A DNA stretch of 64,000 nt, from contig NZ_WVID01000022.1 in the NCBI RefSeq assembly GCF_010091925.1, positions 1 through 64,000 on the forward strand, written 5' to 3'. Below are positions 45,643 through 55,282 of this stretch, piece after piece. The stretch comes from Nostoc sp. B(2019) (GTDB lineage: Bacteria > Cyanobacteriota > Cyanobacteriia > Cyanobacteriales > Nostocaceae). The translations under genes and the position numbers were made by a program. The notes beneath the pieces are model-generated. The model did no database searches and had not been told where the DNA came from. It saw only the letters and a list, made by a program, of their open reading frames with translations. The number at the start of each line of letters is the position of its first letter. Position 1 is the first letter of the stretch.

Positions 45643-46731
45643 ATGAAAATTCTTATTATTGGTGGCACAAATTTTATTGGCCCCCCTTTAGTCCATCAAT
45701 TGGTTGCAATGGGTCATGAAGTGAGTATATTTCATCGCGGAACAACCACAGCTACTTTACCACGAGATGTGCATGAAATTTTGGGCGATCGCTCGCATCT
45801 TTGGGAGATGAGAAGCCAGTTTCAGCAGCTTTCGCCTCAAGTCGTAATAGATATGATTGCTTACACTGAACAAGACGCGCTAACCCTGATGAACACATTT
45901 GAGGGCATTGCTGAGCGTGTCGTTGTCATCAGCAGTATGGATGTGTATCGGGCATACGATGTGCTTTGGGGCAAGGAATCTGATGTTGTACCTGTACCAC
46001 TTACTGAAGATTCGTCCCTACGTCAACAACTCTGTCCCTACCGGGAAATGCCTTCTAGACCTCTCAATGTGCCAGTTGATTATGAAAAGATTCTAGTGGA
46101 ACGGATAGTGATGGGGTGTGACTTACCAGGAACGATTTTACGCCTGCCAATGGTTTATGGTTCTAGAGATGTTCTGCATCGCCTGTATTCCTATCTTCAG
46201 CGAATGGATGATAACCGCCCTGCTATTGTTTTGTCAGAAAGTATTGCAAGATGGCGTGGTTCTTATGGTTATGTAGAGAATATAGCGTATGCGATCGCAC
46301 TAGCAACCACAAATGAAAATGCAGCTGATCGCATCTATCATGTTGCTGAAGTAAAAGTACTCACCGAAGCTGAACGTATCACTAAAATCGGAGAAATAGT
46401 CGGCTGGCAGGGTAAAGTTTTTGTCGTACCCAACAGCCAGCTACCACAAGACTGGAAGTTGCCGCTTAACTTAGAGCAAGATTGGATTGTAGACTCAACT
46501 CGTATCCGTAAGGAGTTAGGATATGAGGAAATTTTGCCTCTAGATGAAGCACTGCGGCGAACTATTGCTTGGCAGAAAACTCATCCACCCCAAGAACCGC
46601 AGCAGTTTGCGATGCCGTGGTTGCTAGATTATCCAACAGAAGACTTAATTCTGGCAGGTTTTAAGTCCAATATAGAATCTCAGCATCAGGATAGCGCCGT
46701 TGAATCTCATCCTCAAAAAAGCGCTTCATAG
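45643..46731 (+). CDS. NAD-dependent epimerase/dehydratase-like protein
   Basis: A 362-residue short-chain dehydrogenase-fold protein. The Rossmann motif is MKILIIGGTNFIGPPLVHQL; then VVIDMIAYTEQDAL, VVISSMDVYRAYD and ILRLPMVYGSRD. The position of the usual YxxxK reads VDYEKILVER, so the catalytic lysine spacing is abnormal and epimerase activity is uncertain. It resembles the UDP-glucose-epimerase-like or CSP41-like group. The last 71 bases overlap the convergent radical SAM gene. Confidence 0.75.
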   Translation: MKILIIGGTNFIGPPLVHQLVAMGHEVSIFHRGTTTATLPRDVHEILGDRSHLWEMRSQFQQLSPQVVIDMIAYTEQDALTLMNTFEGIAERVVVISSMDVYRAYDVLWGKESDVVPVPLTEDSSLRQQLCPYREMPSRPLNVPVDYEKILVERIVMGCDLPGTILRLPMVYGSRDVLHRLYSYLQRMDDNRPAIVLSESIARWRGSYGYVENIAYAIALATTNENAADRIYHVAEVKVLTEAERITKIGEIVGWQGKVFVVPNSQLPQDWKLPLNLEQDWIVDSTRIRKELGYEEILPLDEALRRTIAWQKTHPPQEPQQFAMPWLLDYPTEDLILAGFKSNIESQHQDSAVESHPQKSAS

Positions 46732-47749
46732 CCTTCATTGTGCCAGCATCGTAAACGTACTTAACACCACCAAACTTATTACGCTTGACACTGCGTTTTG
46801 CTTCATCCATGTCTAGCTTTGATTGGGGATACCAAGTTTGCAACACCTCTTTCGACCCTGGTGTAAAGCGATGGGAAATTAGCTCAAAAGTGAGGTCACA
46901 ATCTATATCCAGCGCTTCACTAATCGAGTCAAACAATCGACTATAGTGCATTTGCCAATCATCTATAGGCATAATTGGCGCGATAACCAACCCTACTGGA
47001 TAGCCGCCACCACCGCGCTCCCGTGGTAGCGCCAACTGCCGTAATGCCGCAAGCCGTGATGCTACCGATGCTGTACCACCTTCAAACTTACCAGAAATAG
47101 GTGCTGCATTGACGCTCATCCGGCAGCGAGTATGACCGTTGTGAGGTAGGTCAAGTAAGCCATCTACCGCAGAGAATTTTGATACCCAGCGTAGATGTGC
47201 ATCAGTCCGAGTGCCAAAATAACGGATACATTCAGCCAGGCTACCCGTCAGATGCTCAATACCCAATGGGTCAGTGTAACAGCTGACCTCATAAGTTGTT
47301 ACCTGTCCTGGTCGTTCATAGACTGCTAAATTCTCTAATATTTGCGGCAAATTGGCATAGGTGCGGATAACAGGCGGCCCCGATAAACTACCCGCCAGAT
47401 AACAGTATTGGCAATGTCCAGGACAACCCTCAGCAAGATGAAATTGCCAATCAGCAGATGGAGGGATAGGACTAAGCTTGAAATGACTAGGTGGAGCTGT
47501 CACAACCGCTAAGGTGCGCTTGGCAATATTGTAAGTTTCGCGCTCGTCTTCACCGCGTAAACCTGTAAGGCGGTTGCGTGGTAGTTCTTCTATTGGTAAG
47601 TTTAGTGACTGGACACGCGCTAAAATTTGCTGTCCCCAAGGCTCATTTAAAGCAGCAGGTGTAAACATCACCCGTTCAGGCATCCATAATCTTGCTGAGC
47701 GTATTTGTGTGTCTGCTACCGAAACATGGTCTGTAATTGTATTCAGCAA
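46661..47749 (-). CDS. spore-photoproduct-lyase-like radical SAM protein
   Basis: A 362-residue protein. The radical SAM 4Fe-4S motif is EGCPGHCQYCYLAGSLSGPP (CxxxCxxC, residues about 113-120). Flanking text includes LTGLRGEDERETYNIAKRTL, VSCYTDPLGIEHLTGSL, LRWVSKFSAVDGLLDL, RMSVNAAPISGKFEGGTAS and PVGLVIAPIMPIDDW, all typical of the SPL-like radical SAM family. True spore photoproduct lyase is a spore DNA-repair enzyme; non-spore-formers carry homologues of unclear substrate. Its 3' end overlaps the convergent epimerase gene. Confidence 0.8.
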   Translation of the reverse strand: MLNTITDHVSVADTQIRSARLWMPERVMFTPAALNEPWGQQILARVQSLNLPIEELPRNRLTGLRGEDERETYNIAKRTLAVVTAPPSHFKLSPIPPSADWQFHLAEGCPGHCQYCYLAGSLSGPPVIRTYANLPQILENLAVYERPGQVTTYEVSCYTDPLGIEHLTGSLAECIRYFGTRTDAHLRWVSKFSAVDGLLDLPHNGHTRCRMSVNAAPISGKFEGGTASVASRLAALRQLALPRERGGGGYPVGLVIAPIMPIDDWQMHYSRLFDSISEALDIDCDLTFELISHRFTPGSKEVLQTWYPQSKLDMDEAKRSVKRNKFGGVKYVYDAGTMKAMKRFFEDEIQRRYPDAEILYWT

Positions 47750-48379: not shown

Positions 48380-48589
48380 ATGATTTCTCACGATTACAAT
48401 GCCATTGATATTGAAGAAAACCTGCTTCGACAAATCGAAATTAAAGAAAATCAGCTAAAAATTGCACAAGAGTCTAATATGGCCTATGTGGCAGAAGCAA
48501 TAGAAAGTGAATTGCTAAAGTTACGCTCTCAATTACCAGAACCACAAGAGCAAGAATTGCAAGCATTGATGAGTTTGTTAGACGATTAA
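48380..48589 (+). CDS. small hypothetical protein, helical
   Basis: A 69-residue protein from ATG 48380 (MISHDYNAIDIEENLLRQIE). It is rich in Glu, Gln and Leu with predicted helices (AYVAEAIESELLKLRSQL, EQELQALMSLLDD). There is no signal peptide. I do not recognise the family. Acidic composition and coiled-coil-like periodicity could suit a partner protein. It lies about 255 bases upstream of the GG-leader peptide. Confidence 0.45.
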   Translation: MISHDYNAIDIEENLLRQIEIKENQLKIAQESNMAYVAEAIESELLKLRSQLPEPQEQELQALMSLLDD

Positions 48590-48830
48590 ATTTTGTAGTT
48601 AAAGAATGCGATCGCAAAACCCAAAAACACCGTGATTTCTGATGTAAACGCTTGATTTTGATAGGAAATAATTGACAACAGAAGTTGTCATCAACCAAAA
48701 GGTAGAACTTTAGCTTACTACTTTCTAACTTTAGATAGTTTAATCTGTATCAAATAAATTTAGAACTAAAAGCAGAGGTATTAAATACTTTTGTTTTTGT
48801 ACATCTGTATGTAATACCTATGTGCTAAAC

Positions 48831-48836
48831 GGAGGT
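48831..48836 (+). promoter_or_regulatory. strong ribosome binding site for the GG-leader peptide
   Basis: GGAGGT lies 8 bases before ATG 48845, unusually good for this genome, and supports real and strong translation. Confidence 0.75.
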
Positions 48837-48844
48837 AGTTAATT

Positions 48845-49057
48845 ATGGCAGCTCAAATAAACACTTCTGATTTACTGGTAGAGTTATCCGAACAAGAACA
48901 GGAGCTTCAAAGTGGAGGTCACTGGGGTCACTATGGAAGACCTTGGGGCTATCACGGAAAACATTGGGGCTATCACGGAAAACCTTGGGGCTACCACGGA
49001 AGACCTTGGGGCTACCACGGAAGACCTTGGGGTTGGGGTGGCGGTTGGCGATATTAA
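48845..49057 (+). CDS. double-glycine-leader peptide with His/Trp/Tyr/Gly heptapeptide repeats
   Basis: A 70-residue peptide. The first 25 residues look like a bacteriocin-type leader: DLLVELSEQEQELQSGG, matching the LSxxELxxxxGG pattern cut by C39-peptidase ABC exporters. The remaining 45 residues consist of repeats of about seven residues, YHGKHWG, YHGKPWG, YHGRPWG, YHGRPWG, after an opening HWGHYGRPWG and before WGGGWRY. The core has eight Trp, seven His and no Cys, so it is not a lanthipeptide core. No exporter or modifying enzyme is adjacent. It resembles in style the short cyanobacterial bacteriocin-like peptides with a similar leader; possible roles are antimicrobial, signalling or metal-binding. 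Confidence 0.7.
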   Translation: MAAQINTSDLLVELSEQEQELQSGGHWGHYGRPWGYHGKHWGYHGKPWGYHGRPWGYHGRPWGWGGGWRY

Positions 49058-49060
49058 ATT

Positions 49061-49089
49061 GACAAAGCCCTGTTTAAAAAGGCTTGTCA
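49061..49089 (+). terminator. hairpin after the GG-leader peptide gene
   Basis: GACAAAGCC and GGCTTGTC pair with one bulged A around an 11-base loop, just after the stop codon; there is no U tract, so termination is uncertain. Confidence 0.4.
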
Positions 49090-49136
49090 TTACCTAACAT
49101 TTTTGTAACAGTCAAATTGTCATAAAAGCATAGCCC

Positions 49137-49158
49137 GCCTGCGATTAAAATCGCAGGC
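49137..49158. repeat. 22-bp hairpin repeat
   Basis: The arm GCCTGCGATT is followed by AA and then AATCGCAGGC, an almost gapless inverted repeat of the kind dispersed in Nostoc genomes. Confidence 0.6.
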
Positions 49159-49220
49159 TGATAGCCCAACTCCACGCTTGCATGGACTCAAACCCTTTCT
49201 TAGTCTTCTAAAGAAAACTT

Positions 49221-49260
49221 TAGCTATTAGCTTGGAAATTTATTCCCAAGCTAATAGCTA
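49221..49260. repeat. 15-bp perfect inverted repeat
   Basis: TAGCTATTAGCTTGG (49221-49235) and CCAAGCTAATAGCTA (49246-49260) pair perfectly around a 10-base AT-rich loop, in the region 3' of both the peptide gene and cupA. It could act as a bidirectional transcript end. Confidence 0.6.
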
Positions 49261-49352
49261 TGATGCAATAAATTGAAAAGATGTGGTAGTGACAAAGACT
49301 TATAGTCTGAAGACGATTCTTTAGCTATTAGCATAAGGATTCATGAAAATTC

Positions 49353-49417
49353 AACCACAGATGAACACCGATAAACACAGATAATTTATCGGTGTTCATC
49401 CGTGTTCATCTGTGGTT
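49353..49417. repeat. 65-bp hairpin repeat
   Basis: AACCACAGATGAACAC (49353-49368) pairs exactly with GTGTTCATCTGTGGTT (49402-49417); an inner CGATAAA/TTTATCG pair extends the stem. The hairpin ends about 20 bases from the cupA stop codon, so it could terminate that transcript; this phrase also occurs as a dispersed spacer repeat in cyanobacteria. Confidence 0.6.
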
Positions 49418-49437: not shown

Positions 49438-50745
49438 TTATCTATAATCCTGCTTTTGAATACTCCCCAAACGAGCAGCATCACGAATGTTATATTCAGG
49501 ACGAGTAAAGCGATTTAGCTGCATCTCAAAGAAATCTCGATTGGCTTGTAAATGCCTGGGATTTGGGTCATCTAAAGGATATAAAAGTGCTGTCCGCAAT
49601 GCCTGAATTACCGCAGAAGTAACACAATACATTGACCGTTGGAAACTAACTCCCAACTGAATCAACATATCTTCTTCACCACGGCAATGTTTGCTGTAGT
49701 AATCAACAAGATATGGTGGCAAAAAATGCAACATATCTTGCATTAACAATGTAGGCGGAATACCAGCAGTACCTACTGGAAACACATCGGCGTAGAGAAT
49801 GCCATAGTGGAAGTCTTTTTGATTTTCCGGTACTTGACGTGCTTGAGCATTATAAGATTTTGTACCCCGGAAAGGAGCAGTACGATAGAAAACTGCTTCT
49901 ACATAAGGTAATGCGGCTTCATATAGCCACATAAAGCCTTTAGATTTGGGGATAATTTCGTAACATTCGCCACGAATATAAACGTGATGATAAATGGGAC
50001 GACCTGCGATCGCAAATATACCATTAACCAAGAAACTCATCGCCTCTGGAACGCTGGTAATTGTGCCCTCGTCATAGCGGTCGGACATTTCAAAGAATAC
50101 CGGGGCCATGATTTCCCAGAACAAGCCCAGGTTAGCGTAGTAAGACATCTGGCGGCACTGTTCCAAAAACATATCTGGGAACAGCTTATACAGTCCTAGC
50201 ATCACTGGATTGCCTTGGAAATAAGCTTTAATTGCCTTATCAGCGTTGGCTTTGTATTCTTCTGAGTCTAGATAAGGGTCAAATTGCCCACCCATACCTC
50301 TGTGCCACAGCATTGCCCGCATACAGGCTTCCGCAAATTCCATGTTAATGCGATCGTGCAATAAGTGATGCAACAATTTTGGCATTTTGAAGGTTTCACC
50401 TTTCTCGATAAATGCCAACAGTTCTGGATGTGCAGTAGCTTCGCCGCGCCAAATACGCAAATCGGCATCATCCCCAGCGTAATGATTATGCCGTTCTAAA
50501 TACTCTTTAGGCAAGAAGTATTTAAAAAAGGGCAACGGGTTTAAAAATTCGCGTTCAGCAATATAAAGTAGGTCACGCCAATAAAAATCCATCGGCACGG
50601 CATAAGCTTTATATAAACCGATAATTTGCATCAGATTTTCTGGCGTATCTGGCAACATTGCACCGCCTGCTTCTAGGCGATGAATTACTTCGGCAAATTC
50701 GTGCTGAGAAGGAGGTAATTTAATTGCTGTTTTAATTGCTGTCAT
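49438..50745 (-). CDS. cupA: CO2 hydration protein CupA/ChpY of the NDH-1MS complex
   Basis: A 435-residue protein matching the ChpX/ChpY family throughout: HEFAEVIHRLEAGGAMLPDTPENLMQI, FYWRDLLYIAEREFLNPLPFFKYFLP, LRIWRGEATAHPELLAFIEKGE, RGMGGQFDPYLDSEEY and CYEIIPKSKGFMWLYEAALPY. It converts CO2 to bicarbonate on NDH-1 complexes in the thylakoid. It follows ndhD3 and ndhF3 on the minus strand, which identifies the inducible high-affinity MS form (CupA) rather than CupB. No cupS gene follows it; the next region is repeats. Confidence 0.9.
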   Translation of the reverse strand: MTAIKTAIKLPPSQHEFAEVIHRLEAGGAMLPDTPENLMQIIGLYKAYAVPMDFYWRDLLYIAEREFLNPLPFFKYFLPKEYLERHNHYAGDDADLRIWRGEATAHPELLAFIEKGETFKMPKLLHHLLHDRINMEFAEACMRAMLWHRGMGGQFDPYLDSEEYKANADKAIKAYFQGNPVMLGLYKLFPDMFLEQCRQMSYYANLGLFWEIMAPVFFEMSDRYDEGTITSVPEAMSFLVNGIFAIAGRPIYHHVYIRGECYEIIPKSKGFMWLYEAALPYVEAVFYRTAPFRGTKSYNAQARQVPENQKDFHYGILYADVFPVGTAGIPPTLLMQDMLHFLPPYLVDYYSKHCRGEEDMLIQLGVSFQRSMYCVTSAVIQALRTALLYPLDDPNPRHLQANRDFFEMQLNRFTRPEYNIRDAARLGSIQKQDYR

Positions 50746-50839
50746 GATAATTGGTGTTTGCTAATTGCTATTTTTAGTAGTAGTAATTCTTGACGTAAAT
50801 TAAGTAGACAATAATTGAATAGAAGAGATTTTGTGGCTT

Positions 50840-50873
50840 GTAGTTAGTGCTTTAGCGCTAAAGCACTAACTAC
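50840..50873. repeat. 34-bp perfect palindrome, dispersed repeat (copy 2)
   Basis: GTAGTTAGTGCTTTAGC is followed directly by its exact reverse complement. The same family occurs imperfectly at 8280-8314, so it is a dispersed element. Confidence 0.8.
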
Positions 50874-50929
50874 GAACTCTAATTTGTTTGTGTCTGCTTC
50901 CTTCCTGTATAGGTGCGTAATCTTCTTTA

Positions 50930-52426
50930 CTACTTCAAAGCAAATTGAGAGATTACGGTTTTTTCTGTGGAAGGAATTGCAGCTACCATTGCTGTAGTTG
51001 TGGGTTCACTCCAACGCACTAACCAAGTCGGTTGTACTCCCAAAAAGATAATCAGCGCTGCCAAAATTAAAGCTGGCATTTTCTCAGACCATAAAACTTT
51101 GGGATAGTAGGCAAAGTTATCAAGTTTGCCAAAACAGGTGCGATTGAGGAGGATGACAAAATAAACTGCGGTTAATCCACTAGCCACTACACACAACAAT
51201 GTGGGGATGGGAAAGACTGAGAAACTGCCTTGAAAAACGATGAATTCAGCGATGAATCCTGTTAAACCGGGAATACCAGCACTAGCCATCCCACTTAAAA
51301 CCAGCAAGGCACTAATTAAGGGTAAACCGCGTATAGGACTCATTAAGCCATTGAGTTTATCTAACTCACGAGTACCAACTTTCGCCTCCACGACTCCCAC
51401 CAAATGGAAGAGAATGGCAAGGATAATGCCGTGACTAAACATCTGGGCGACAGCACCAACAAGTGCTAGAGGAGTACCGGCGGCACTAGCTAGCAAGATA
51501 TAGCCCATGTGACCGACGGAGCTATATGCTACCATGCGCTTGATATCTTTTTGAGCGATCGCAATTACTGCCCCATAGATAGCACTGATTGCTCCCCAAA
51601 TTGCCAAAGTTGGCGCGATAGTACTCCAAGTTTGGGGAAACATCCCTAATCCAAACCGCAATAGTCCATAAGTTCCTAGCTTTGCCAACACGCCACCAAG
51701 AAGAATGGCAATTGGTGCTGAAGCTTCAACATAAGCATCTGGCAGCCAAGTATGAAAAGGAATCAGGGGAATTTTGATGCCAAAACCTAATACTATCCCT
51801 GATAGGAGAAGGATTTGCTTTGCTGTTGACAGGTTTTCTGTAGAGATTCCATCAACAGCAAAACTAGTAGAACCAGTCAACCAGACCACGCCTAAGAAGG
51901 TCGCTAGAATAAATGCCCCTGAAACAGCAGTATAAATCAGGAATTTAATACCAGCGTAAGCCCGCTTTTCTCCTCCCCAAATAGAAATCAGTAGATAGAA
52001 AGGGATTAACTCTAGTTCGTAGAACAAGAAGAATAGCAGCAAATTTTCTGCTAGGAAAGCACCGGCAACTCCACCACTAACTAATAAAATCATCGAATAG
52101 AAAAGCCGGGGACGTTCAGTTTGTTGATTACTGCTGTAAATAGCAATCCAGGTGAGTAGGCTATTTAACACCAACATTAATATAGAAAGCCCATCAACTC
52201 CTAATTGATAGCTCAAACCTAGAGTTTCATTCCAGGGTAAATACTCTTGAAATTGCATCTCTGGATTGCTGATATCAAATTTCAGCAATATAAAAAGATT
52301 CCAGAGAAGAACTATTCCCGAAAAGAATAATGCTCCTAAACGAATACGATTGGCGGAGAAACTTCCAGGTAATAATACTATGAAAGCTGCGGCTAAAATT
52401 GGAAGCCAAATCAAAACACTTAACAT
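50930..52426 (-). CDS. ndhD3: NDH-1 subunit NdhD3
   Basis: A 498-residue antiporter-like membrane subunit with about 14 hydrophobic helices. It contains NdhD text: LSYQLGVDGLSILMLVLNSL, FFLFYELELIPFYLLISIWGG (membrane Glu), LPFHTWLPDAYVEA-like IPLIPFHTWLPDAYVEASAPIAILLGGVLAKLG and AIAQKDIKRMVAYSSVGHMGYI. With ndhF3 and cupA close by it belongs to the CO2-uptake type NDH-1MS in the thylakoid. The gap to cupA holds a dispersed palindrome; upstream lies the carbonic anhydrase gene. Confidence 0.9.
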   Translation of the reverse strand: MLSVLIWLPILAAAFIVLLPGSFSANRIRLGALFFSGIVLLWNLFILLKFDISNPEMQFQEYLPWNETLGLSYQLGVDGLSILMLVLNSLLTWIAIYSSNQQTERPRLFYSMILLVSGGVAGAFLAENLLLFFLFYELELIPFYLLISIWGGEKRAYAGIKFLIYTAVSGAFILATFLGVVWLTGSTSFAVDGISTENLSTAKQILLLSGIVLGFGIKIPLIPFHTWLPDAYVEASAPIAILLGGVLAKLGTYGLLRFGLGMFPQTWSTIAPTLAIWGAISAIYGAVIAIAQKDIKRMVAYSSVGHMGYILLASAAGTPLALVGAVAQMFSHGIILAILFHLVGVVEAKVGTRELDKLNGLMSPIRGLPLISALLVLSGMASAGIPGLTGFIAEFIVFQGSFSVFPIPTLLCVVASGLTAVYFVILLNRTCFGKLDNFAYYPKVLWSEKMPALILAALIIFLGVQPTWLVRWSEPTTTAMVAAIPSTEKTVISQFALK

Positions 52427-52636
52427 GGCAATTTTAAATTCAAAAAACTGATAATAAGTAGTGTCTTCAAAACTATTTTATAAAGCTCCAAACAAAAGAC
52501 TTATTTGTATTTTGAATGGAGCGATCGCGCAGTGTCTTCGTAATAGAAATGATAGTCATTAATCCTTATACAAATGACATAGATGCCCAAAGGGCGGCTT
52601 CCCGTAGGGTAAGACTAATGACTAATGACAAAATAA

Positions 52637-53350
52637 CTAACTAACTAAATTGATTCTACCAGTATCCAAATCGTAGTAACCACCGACTATTTTCAACTTT
52701 TCAGTCTTGATTAACTCAGATAACACTGGCGATGATTTCAATTTTTGAACTTGCGCCAAAATATTTGCTTTACAAGCATTTTCTAACTTATCTCCTGATT
52801 GTTTTTTTGAGATTTCTACACTCGGTTTAATTGCTTCAAGCAAACTTCCAATTTGTCCTGGTACTTGAGCACCTTTGATCGCGGCATCTACCGCACCACA
52901 TCTTTCATGTCCCATTACCATAATGACTTTAGTACCTAATACTAAGCTGCCAAATTCTAGGCTACCAATTTCTTCTGGTGTAGCAATATTACCAGCTACA
53001 CGGCAGACAAATAAATCTCCAAGCCCCTGGTCAAAAATAATCTCTGAAGGAACTCGTGAATCTGCACAACCCAAAATAGAAGCATAGGGGTTTTGACCTT
53101 TAGCAACTTCCAACAAACGTGTATATCCTTGGTTGGGATTTCGACGTTTTCTTTTCACAAACCTGTCATTTCCGTCTAGTAATTCTTGTAGTGCCTTTTC
53201 GGGGGTTATATCATTTTTTGCTGAGGCTTGTTCGGGTGCAATCAAGTTTGAACCTATTCCTGCTGCCACCACACCTGTACCGATCGCACCTGCACCAAAC
53301 TTGAGTAAACCTCTTCTAGAAACCTTTACTTTAGCCTGTTTTCCGCTCAC
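52637..53350 (-). CDS. ecaB: Tat-exported beta-carbonic anhydrase
   Basis: A 237-residue protein. The twin-arginine signal KVSRRGLLKFGAGAIGTG (residues 9-26) is followed by a hydrophobic stretch and a cleavage-like ASAKN near 44, so the enzyme should act outside the cytoplasm or in the lumen. The beta-CA zinc ligands are Cys95 and Asp97 in GCADSRVPSE, and His148 and Cys151 in GHERCGAVDA. EcaB is a known cyanobacterial periplasmic beta-CA linked functionally to Cup proteins, which suits the location between ndhF3 and ndhD3. Exact orthology is inferred. It could supply or equilibrate CO2 for the NDH-1MS complex. Confidence 0.85.
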   Translation of the reverse strand: MSGKQAKVKVSRRGLLKFGAGAIGTGVVAAGIGSNLIAPEQASAKNDITPEKALQELLDGNDRFVKRKRRNPNQGYTRLLEVAKGQNPYASILGCADSRVPSEIIFDQGLGDLFVCRVAGNIATPEEIGSLEFGSLVLGTKVIMVMGHERCGAVDAAIKGAQVPGQIGSLLEAIKPSVEISKKQSGDKLENACKANILAQVQKLKSSPVLSELIKTEKLKIVGGYYDLDTGRINLVS

Positions 53351-53419
53351 TCGATTCTCCTCAAAACATTAAACTGTTAGCCGAGATTGAAATGGTCACT
53401 ACCACACGAATGTAGAGAT

Positions 53420-55282
53420 TTAAAACATCAAATCTAAAAACTGTACTCCCCAGAAAGGCCAAGTTACCCACATTCCTAAGACGCTTACCCCTAAAAGAAC
53501 TGTGAATGCATAAAACTGGGTTTGTCCAGAAGTACTGTACTTGAGACTTTCGCCACCTAATAGTGAAAACAAACCAACCATATTAACGATGCCATCAACT
53601 ACAAAGCGGTCAATCATGTCGGCAAATTTGGAAATTTGGGCAACGCCGAAAATAACAGTCATCCGATAGAGTTTCGGGGTATAAAAATCGTATGCCAACA
53701 AGTCTTGTAAACCTTTCCAAGGCAGACGAATAGGTTTAGGAATGTTGCCTAAATAAATCACACCACCAATGCTGCAACCGAAAATACTCGACCAAATTAA
53801 AAGTAGTGCAACATCCTTATTAATGATTGTCCAATCAGGTAGAAGTGATAAGCTTTGTAATATTAAAGGAAGATGCAAAGTAAAGCCGAGTAAAATCACC
53901 ATTGGCAGAATCATCGGCCAGTGAGCTTCAGGCGATCGCTCACTCATCTGTGTCGGTTTACCACCAAAAAGTAGACCGAATTCTCTGGTTAAACTAAAAG
54001 CTGTTAAAGCGTTGACGGCTATTACCACTCCTACTAACCAAGGTTGCGTTCCCCACAGCCCATCTGCTAACTTCATCAATGCCCAAAAGCTACCCAACGG
54101 TGGAAAACCAATTAACCCCAAAGTCCCGACGATAAAGGCTAATCCTGAGATGGGGCGACGTGACCACAATCCGCCTAATTGGGTGACATCTTGAGTGATG
54201 CTGTTCCAGATAATTCCCCCAGTACTCATCACCAACAAAGCTGCTGATATGGCATGGGTGAGTACCAACAATAGCGCGGCTTCGTCTTGCTGTACTCCCA
54301 CAGCAATGAACACCAAGCCCATGTAAGCACTGACAGAATAAGATAAACAGCGTTTGAGGTCAACTTGAGCGATCGCAATTAAAGAAGCACCCACCGCTGT
54401 CACCGCCCCAATCGTTACTATGGCTGAGGAAACTATGGGCGACAGAGTTAACACAGGTTGCAATTTAATTAGCACCCATGCACCACTAGCGACTACTACC
54501 GAGTTCCGCAAAATCGTACTTGGAACAGGGCCTTCCATCGCTTCATCTAACCACAGATGCAAGGGAAACTGGGCGCATTTGCCCATCGGCCCAGCAATTA
54601 AAGCTAACCCTACTAGCGCCATTGTCGTAGGGTTGACATCCGCTGTCGCCGCCCATTGCGCCAGATCTGGATAACTCCAAGTTCCAGCAAGGGGCCATAG
54701 TGCTAACACCCCCATCAGCAAGAATAAGTCTCCCACCCGCTTTGTTAAGAAAGCATCTCTCGCACCTGAAACTACCAACGGCTGACTAAACCATAAGCCC
54801 ACAAGTAGGTAGGTTCCGAGAGTGAGGATTTCCAGAATTACATAACTAAAAAACAAGTTATTACACAGAACAAGGGCGCACAATCCCGCTTCAAATAATC
54901 CCAATAAGGAATAGAAACGTCCCCAACCCCAATCCATTTCCATGTAACCAATTGCAAATATCTGCGCTAACAAATTCAAGCCACAAATGACAACTAACGC
55001 GCCGACACTTACAGAGGAAATTTCTAAAGCAATGGTTAGGTCTAAACCAGCTGTAGACAACCAAGGTATAAATACTTCTTGGGGGGGTTGATTCCAAGTT
55101 GCTTGTAATGCGATCGCGCTATGAACGAACGCCAAAAATGTCATCACCAAATTGACATAACCAGCCGGTCTTGGCCCGGTGTGACGAATGATCCCCGGCG
55201 ACCAAGGCACAGCCAACAGCCCACCCATTAATGCATAGCAAGGAACTAGCCAAACAGTCTCAAGTAGAAACTGAGCCATCAA
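53420..55282 (-). CDS. ndhF3: NDH-1 subunit NdhF3
   Basis: A 620-residue membrane protein with about 15 hydrophobic helices and NdhF motifs: FFSYVILEILTLGTYLLVGLWFSQPL, DAFLTKRVGDLFLLMGVLAL, CAQFPLHLWLDEAMEGPVPSTILRNS (inserted in the place of the usual proton path) and AIAQVDLKRCLSYSVSAYMGLVF. The C-terminal YDFYTPKLYRMTVIFGVAQ and amphipathic ending are typical. It is the first gene of the minus-strand NDH-1MS cluster; an 18-bp palindrome and AT-rich DNA upstream probably hold its promoter. Confidence 0.9.
   Translation of the reverse strand: MMAQFLLETVWLVPCYALMGGLLAVPWSPGIIRHTGPRPAGYVNLVMTFLAFVHSAIALQATWNQPPQEVFIPWLSTAGLDLTIALEISSVSVGALVVICGLNLLAQIFAIGYMEMDWGWGRFYSLLGLFEAGLCALVLCNNLFFSYVILEILTLGTYLLVGLWFSQPLVVSGARDAFLTKRVGDLFLLMGVLALWPLAGTWSYPDLAQWAATADVNPTTMALVGLALIAGPMGKCAQFPLHLWLDEAMEGPVPSTILRNSVVVASGAWVLIKLQPVLTLSPIVSSAIVTIGAVTAVGASLIAIAQVDLKRCLSYSVSAYMGLVFIAVGVQQDEAALLLVLTHAISAALLVMSTGGIIWNSITQDVTQLGGLWSRRPISGLAFIVGTLGLIGFPPLGSFWALMKLADGLWGTQPWLVGVVIAVNALTAFSLTREFGLLFGGKPTQMSERSPEAHWPMILPMVILLGFTLHLPLILQSLSLLPDWTIINKDVALLLIWSSIFGCSIGGVIYLGNIPKPIRLPWKGLQDLLAYDFYTPKLYRMTVIFGVAQISKFADMIDRFVVDGIVNMVGLFSLLGGESLKYSTSGQTQFYAFTVLLGVSVLGMWVTWPFWGVQFLDLMF

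Follow-up and report, generated by a model that had tools for sequence, protein, structure and literature searches.

A double-glycine-leader peptide with Gly/aromatic heptad repeats in Nostoc sp. B(2019), very probably exported in trans and possibly a matrix peptide

Introduction

What use might a cyanobacterium have for a peptide of 70 amino acids, 45 of which form a run of YHGxPWG heptads? The question is raised by an open reading frame of Nostoc sp. B(2019), found in a 64,000-nucleotide stretch of contig NZ_WVID01000022.1. This whole stretch is called the window here. A preliminary description, made from the letters alone, held that the frame encodes a precursor cut after Gly-Gly by a C39-peptidase ABC exporter, and that its core might be antimicrobial, signalling, metal-binding or adhesive.

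The question has, of course, several layers. One must ask whether the frame is a gene at all, how its product might leave the cell, what might govern its expression, and then what the core might do.

The gene and its product

The frame (48845-49057, forward strand) encodes a 25-residue double-glycine leader, which reads MAAQINTSDLLVELSEQEQELQSGG, followed by the 45-residue core. Its features are these:

48831-48836, forward: Shine-Dalgarno sequence GGAGGT, 8 nt upstream of the ATG
48845..48919, forward: double-glycine leader, residues 1-25, with a predicted helix at residues 7-23 (46.2 bits to the leader profile, of which it is itself a row; AlphaFold)
48920..49054, forward: core, residues 26-70, of YHGxPWG heptads with no predicted fold (translation, DNA repeat, orthologues, AlphaFold)
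49060..49089, forward: inverted repeat TGACAAAGCC/GGCTTGTCA directly after the stop, a possible terminator (read from the sequence)

The ribosome-binding site, the leader and a core with eight Trp and seven His are all as first described. The core also has six Arg/Lys and no acidic residue. The preliminary description gave it no Cys and few Ser/Thr; in fact Cys, Ser and Thr are all absent, which sets it apart from lanthipeptides and heterocyclised RiPPs, and the judgement that it is unlike common bacteriocins is borne out. Neither of the two scanned neighbours (a chpY-type protein and an Spl-type radical-SAM protein) is a lanthipeptide or cyclodehydratase enzyme.

In the DNA, the core is a tandem repeat of a 21-bp unit (4.7 copies, 93% matches, score 161). 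The repeat is also open in one antisense frame and in one other forward frame; the family leader is found in the reported frame only. AlphaFold, run on the single sequence, predicts the leader helix and an unstructured core (mean pLDDT 59), which is weak evidence for a double-glycine leader. A PDB sequence search with the peptide gave a best E of 0.8, PADLOC gave no match for it, and the plasmid and phage collections held no relative at E<=0.01.

The frame is a real, conserved gene. This follows from the eleven genes in the genome that share its leader, from its orthologues, and from an excess of synonymous over non-synonymous differences in the core. Three of the four other genomes of the genus examined have an orthologue, at 83-87% identity, within DNA that aligns piecewise at 86-95% across related genomes. 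Core pS (0.13-0.48) exceeds pN (0.02-0.13) in all six pairs, per site and with small counts. The homologues of variable repeat number for which the preliminary description proposed to search do exist; all three orthologues are one heptad shorter. They retain G-K/R-P-W-G, while six of the seven core His of the window peptide are replaced or absent, so that the heptad His is not conserved. Even close relatives differ in repeat number and in His/Tyr residues. A search of genome contigs for related loci returned four, in Desmonostoc geniculatum, Nostoc calcicola, Acaryochloris and Hydrococcus, with matches that cover the leader and hardly extend beyond it.

The gene lies between a convergent chpY-type CO2 hydration gene (49438-50745, reverse) and an Spl-type radical-SAM gene (46661-47749, reverse). 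The latter scores 308.9 bits with Pfam SPL and 313 bits with TIGR04070, whose cut-off is 400 bits, and its region adjoins the peptide gene in related genomes too. The stretch 49438-55282 (reverse) looks like a low-CO2 uptake cluster, with the chpY-type gene, two NDH-1-subunit-like frames and a beta-carbonic-anhydrase-like frame at 52637-53350 (all but chpY assigned by eye). Upstream, a 69-codon frame at 48380-48589 (forward) is intact and little altered in three related genomes and has no Pfam or NCBIfam match. A long near-palindrome (CACAGATGAACACCGATAAACACAG..., 49356-49417) resembles a repeat-like intergenic element.

One leader, many cores

The leader belongs to a family with the common form MSxQxIxSDLLVELSTEEQQLLSGG. 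The profile built for it (A2) has 42 rows, across which M1, L14, Q19, G24 and G25 are invariant, and it finds the eleven genes of the host genome at E<=1e-7. The cores behind these leaders are unrelated and often repetitive: Trp/Arg/Gly repeats, Tyr/Phe/Gly repeats, Asp-rich, Cys-rich, and one with 12 His. Neither this set of genes nor the upstream elements described below figured in the preliminary description.

The family is widespread close to home. At E<=0.1, the profile matches in 45 of 60 genomes of the host's family. In a class-wide sample of 145 genomes, 7 have the leader at E<=1e-7; all 7 come from the 8 members of the host's family in that sample, and none of the 137 others has it at that threshold. 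Weaker leader-like matches outside the family occur in Acaryochloris and Hydrococcus.

From 56 loci (seven of the host genome, 48 around better-scoring leader matches and one around an exporter), 122 distinct peptides were drawn, among the better-scoring matches listed; frames were left out if the Met or the GG was missing from its usual position, and some of them return among the R1 matches described below. Sorted into classes that were defined after the sequences had been inspected, their cores comprise 29 Gly/aromatic, 18 Cys-rich, three motif groups of 10, 9 and 9, and 47 others. In the Gly/aromatic class, Gly makes up 41% of residues, Trp/Tyr/Phe 28% and Arg 10%, and 25 of the 29 cores have no acidic residue. 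A Trp, Tyr or Phe stands at the C-terminus in 24 of the 29, against 15 of the 93 others, a contrast that is partly built into the definition of the class.

Sister peptides with the same leader, then, have acidic or Cys-rich cores, and a single common function is therefore not required. The sister with 12 His (G000:C30:65925, at L074) also has 4 Cys in its core, is likely a metal binder, and has a close relative in genome G046. Genome G001 carries a same-leader peptide whose core has a run of His.

An exporter elsewhere in the genome

A double-glycine leader calls for a C39 peptidase, and the preliminary description proposed to look for one in the same genome. The genome has eight matches to PF03412 (C39), six of them with E<1e-30. 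At one locus, on contig C14, a HlyD-like frame (recognised by eye) is followed by a 736-codon C39-ABC frame and then by four peptides with the same leader. This exporter matches many models of ABC export, those listed all below their cut-offs, and PADLOC gives it five matches, mostly in the ATPase part.

Its clade was taken as sequences of at least 78% identity, the next sequence being at 74%. So cut, it is present in 28 of the 60 family genomes, and two of the 28 copies have an in-frame stop. Leader (E<1e-8) and exporter clade occur together in 27 genomes, the leader alone in one, the exporter alone in one, and neither in 31 (Fisher 8.6e-15, kinship ignored). Of the 97 leader genes counted in exporter genomes, 68 are no more than 10 kb from the exporter, 59 of these 68 on its strand and downstream of it; in four of the 27 genomes that have both, none of the counted leader genes is so close. 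Genome G013 has the exporter clade, with the leader gene absent at E<=0.1. Gly/aromatic members are found inside exporter clusters, for example in G046, G038, G036 and G029. That of G046, a genome of the same genus, is a Gly/Trp relative with 58% identity and GGRPWG in its core.

The window gene is one of seven members in its genome that lie away from the exporter, and export in trans would therefore be needed. Because the gene is not beside the exporter, its pairing with the C14 exporter rests on the leader, and the five further strong C39 matches in the genome count against a single-exporter pairing. Nevertheless, since leader and exporter clade co-occur and most leader genes of exporter genomes lie near an exporter, the peptide is very probably exported and cleaved after its Gly-Gly, by an exporter acting in trans. 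To this extent, the C39 export reading of the preliminary description is well supported by what the sequences offer.

A promoter box and an inverted repeat upstream

The upstream regions of many members can be aligned by eye. The alignment shows, in order, a box close to ACTTTRGGAKARTTTAATC, an element like TATAAA, then an inverted repeat and a GTGAGG-type Shine-Dalgarno sequence. A covariance model, called R1, was built from 22 of these untranslated regions in their long form, with the Shine-Dalgarno sequence and the ATG included. At the window gene, R1 matches 48759-48847 with 88.2 bits, this sequence being one of the 22 on which it was trained. The elements are placed as follows:

48725..48745, forward: promoter box, a copy of ACTTTRGGAKARTTTAATC minus one base, 13 nt before the R1 match (by eye)
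48759..48766, forward: putative -10 region, here TTTAGAAC and in many relatives close to TATAAA (from the alignment)
48774..48788, forward: conserved stem, 5' arm (pairing and covariation)
48807..48821, forward: conserved stem, 3' arm (pairing and covariation; R1)

Is the arrangement specific to leader genes? With at most two mismatches, the box has 10 sites in the host genome, of which 9 precede leader genes, each 13 nt from an R1 match. A further 38 sites have three mismatches, and no leader gene follows any of them. The total of 48 compares with 23 for a reversed-pattern control. The ungapped pattern found no site for the window gene, whose copy is one base short, or for C14:15926.

R1 behaves similarly. 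At E<=10 it has 11 matches in the host genome, and these mark the starts of exactly the 11 leader genes (five of the matches are training sequences; 150 of 4001 first-look candidates were scored). At E<=0.01 in the 60 family genomes, where strict filters left 72 candidates scored per genome, it has 37 matches in 13 genomes, every one of them no more than 30 nt from a leader gene; the host genome supplies 11 of the 37, and 11 (5 of the host, 6 others) are training sequences. With 30 candidates scored per genome, the class-wide sample gave matches in two of 145 genomes, both of the host's family, and none in the 137 sampled genomes of other families. Loci retrieved almost entirely for their leader genes, 460 kb in all, contain 89 R1 matches at E<=1. 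Eighty belong to listed peptides, 76 of these ending exactly at the ATG. The other nine comprise seven before further leader peptides, one antisense to a true match and one before a five-codon frame.

Conversely, 42 of the 122 peptides, and most leader-bearing genomes at E<=0.01, have no R1 match; the element is therefore common, not universal. It comes in short and long forms. Among genes with a match, 16 of 24 Gly/aromatic genes have the long form, against 13 of 56 others (p 0.0003), an enrichment that is biased because the training set of R1 consists of long forms, to which Gly/aromatic genes contributed many. Four genes (L189 10284, L212 2570, L223 3490 and L225 2567) have the hairpin match and the leader with GG replaced by RG, SG, SG and AG, and may be decayed or differently cut precursors.

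The stem was examined in an alignment made from sequence only (A1) of the 22 long-form regions, which were chosen by eye. The named 15-bp stem is 85.6% paired, against 80.1% in shuffles, a figure that is favoured by the choice of the stem from single-sequence folds of partly the same sequences; control stems slid along the alignment pair at 24-55%. Covariation is seen in eight pairs, with 18 cells changed on both sides, values reached by 1 of 500 and 0 of 500 shuffles. One of five measures, further pair types, is not extreme (30 of 500 shuffles). With four near-duplicates removed, the remaining 18 rows give 85.7% pairing, 8 pairs and 15 cells, matched by 0, 14 and 0 of 2000 shuffles. Comparing longest stems with those of mononucleotide-shuffled sequences was uninformative in DNA this rich in AT.

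These measures are consistent with an RNA hairpin. Against it, RNAalifold derived no common structure from A1. Folded singly, the window sequence has another hairpin as its lowest-energy fold, and the orthologue L037 also folds best in another way; L038 and L039 adopt the conserved stem. The inverted repeat could instead be a DNA operator for a dimeric regulator, for which the RNAalifold result also speaks. In its short form the repeat varies little and reads almost as a palindrome, TAGGTG-n-CACCTA, and a palindromic operator would likewise preserve covariation. However, the better-scoring long forms keep their pairing at lengths of 79 to 95 nt, which an operator of fixed spacing would not be expected to do; the pairing exceeds that of shuffles, and the repeat sits between the putative -10 region and the Shine-Dalgarno sequence. 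On balance, an operator seems less likely than not. Pairing of the 3' arm with the Shine-Dalgarno sequence was considered and dropped, because the latter is often GAGGC.

Rfam returned six matches at E<=10 for window positions 48600-49300, all below gathering thresholds. In ten loci it matched only CyVA-1 and PsrR1, neither at the untranslated region of a peptide gene; these two lie in stretches of the host genome (L077 7142-7218; L074 373-456). The element is thus outside the Rfam families in the searches made and, if it acts as RNA, would be a new cis-regulatory motif.

What the core might do

The reading that we prefer is that the gene encodes the precursor of a family-specific export system, and that its core is a self-associating cationic peptide of the matrix or cell surface, by analogy with the EbfG proteins considered below. 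We put the probability of this reading at about one half. Expression would begin from a promoter common to several loci, which would give an mRNA that starts at or near the stem-loop; the stem-loop, just upstream of the ribosome-binding site, might determine how abundant or how stable the message is. Very probably, the 25-residue leader would then be bound, and cut after Gly-Gly, by the C39 peptidase of an ABC exporter, most plausibly that of the C14 locus elsewhere in the genome with its HlyD-like adaptor, and this exporter would secrete the core. By analogy, the disordered Gly/aromatic/basic core would then self-associate through Trp/Tyr stacking and cation-pi contacts, and adhere to the anionic polysaccharide of sheath or matrix to serve as a "brick" of surface or matrix. 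The exporter would also carry the cores of other members, which are acidic, rich in Cys or of other kinds. The core may also be modified, with the Spl-type radical-SAM gene 1.1 kb away.

Peptides exported by C39 transporters are classically bacteriocins. The same export machine might therefore deliver a cationic, Trp-rich antimicrobial, and this is ranked second after a matrix or surface role. The composition of the core (six Arg/Lys, eight Trp, nothing acidic) would suit such a peptide, as would the net charge of the Gly/aromatic class, which averages +4.4 (range -4 to +11), and the leader has a weak match to the CTB bacteriocin model. However, no immunity gene was recognised among the scanned neighbours (chpY, the Spl-like gene and the 69-codon frame), same-leader sisters are acidic or Cys-rich, and neither repeat number nor the His/Tyr residues are stable among close relatives. 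A bacteriocin is, on this evidence, unlikely.

A core with seven His also invites the thought of metal. Its His/Trp/Gly repeats might chelate copper or a similar metal, and we take them to resemble the copper-binding repeats of other proteins. The same-leader peptide with 12 His and 4 Cys points this way, as does a same-leader gene on contig C20 near a frame that resembles, by eye, the end of a P-type ATPase. But the His presumably needed for chelation are not conserved. A conserved metal role is disfavoured because the orthologues lack six of the seven while keeping GxPWG; further, just 7 of the 29 Gly/aromatic cores have three or more His. The metal-binding suggestion of the preliminary description is weakened accordingly, to the point of being improbable.

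Cargo of peptidase-containing ABC exporters can also be signals, and one regulatory head common to several loci would not be out of place in a signalling system. Yet a low-complexity core of 45 residues with drifting repeats would presumably make a poor ligand for a specific receptor, and no linked receptor gene is apparent in the surrounding list of open reading frames. A signal is the least probable of the roles considered here, and very improbable.

Relation to known systems

Double-glycine peptides and C39 exporters are already known in cyanobacteria. Precursors with NHLP or Nif11 leaders also combine Gly-Gly cleavage with a single leader type and diverse cores. In this they are like the window family, whose leader has 25 residues; a Pfam scan of the window peptide and 42 leaders found no NHLP or Nif11 domain, nor did an NCBIfam scan of the window peptide. 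The CTB family of bacteriocins (NF038167) has a leader that can be aligned in part with residues 1-25; the window peptide scores 18.1 bits against a cut-off of 32 bits. The four CTB genes of the host genome that exceed this cut-off, on contig C11, have other leaders and cores, and their own C39 ABC frame downstream. In Nodularia, CTB-type genes are reported to be raised under phosphate limitation (PMC9846622). For HetC, the substrate is given as unknown in PMC10986499.

The closest functional analogy is with EbfG1-4 and PteB of Synechococcus elongatus. There, as the parts of the reports used here describe it, double-glycine proteins are needed for biofilm, efficient secretion depends on the C39 cysteine (PMC4997328), and EbfG1-3 form amyloid (PMC9981879). 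Both systems have small cyanobacterial proteins with double-glycine leaders, a C39-peptidase transporter and several peptides per exporter. The likeness is one of description: EbfG1-3 cores carry an A-hydrophobic-N-I hotspot, whereas the window core has Gly/aromatic heptads. Unlike the EbfG genes, as these parts present them, those of the window family are scattered, with a common hairpin and promoter box.

Wang et al. (2011; PMC3140520) described cyanobacterial "bacteriocin" clusters with very diverse cores. Their group III clusters have HlyD, a short-type C39 ABC protein and several arrayed precursors with little conservation of the core. The C14 locus has just this content, with a HlyD-like frame (by eye), a short C39 ABC frame and several precursors, and the window gene lies outside it. 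That survey, according to its main-text parts, limited its hunt for precursors to 20 kb around the clusters, a range that would miss orphans like the window gene. Those same parts make no mention of a common untranslated region or promoter, or of Gly/Trp heptads.

In the open-licence literature searched, the combination of leader, promoter box, hairpin and scattered low-complexity cores was not found. No open-licence title or abstract start on the leader or the untranslated region was found, and four literal leader strings were likewise absent.

Implications

Although double-glycine-leader peptides are common across cyanobacteria, a role is known for few of them, and it is easy to overlook orphans that lie at a distance from any exporter. 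Tentatively, and with more doubt than attaches to the reading of the single gene, the family may be seen as a regulon, spread across the host's taxonomic family, in which one promoter box, one previously undescribed RNA hairpin of the 5' untranslated region, one leader and one dedicated exporter serve interchangeable cores, the Gly/aromatic repeats among them being self-assembling extracellular matrix material made of units that change fast from one species to the next. Box, hairpin and leader, all pointing to one exporter, would define a testable regulon and a way to find its orphans. Short repeats of Gly, aromatic residues and Arg that leave the cell through so simple an ABC system would, in turn, be relevant to work on secreted materials that assemble themselves.
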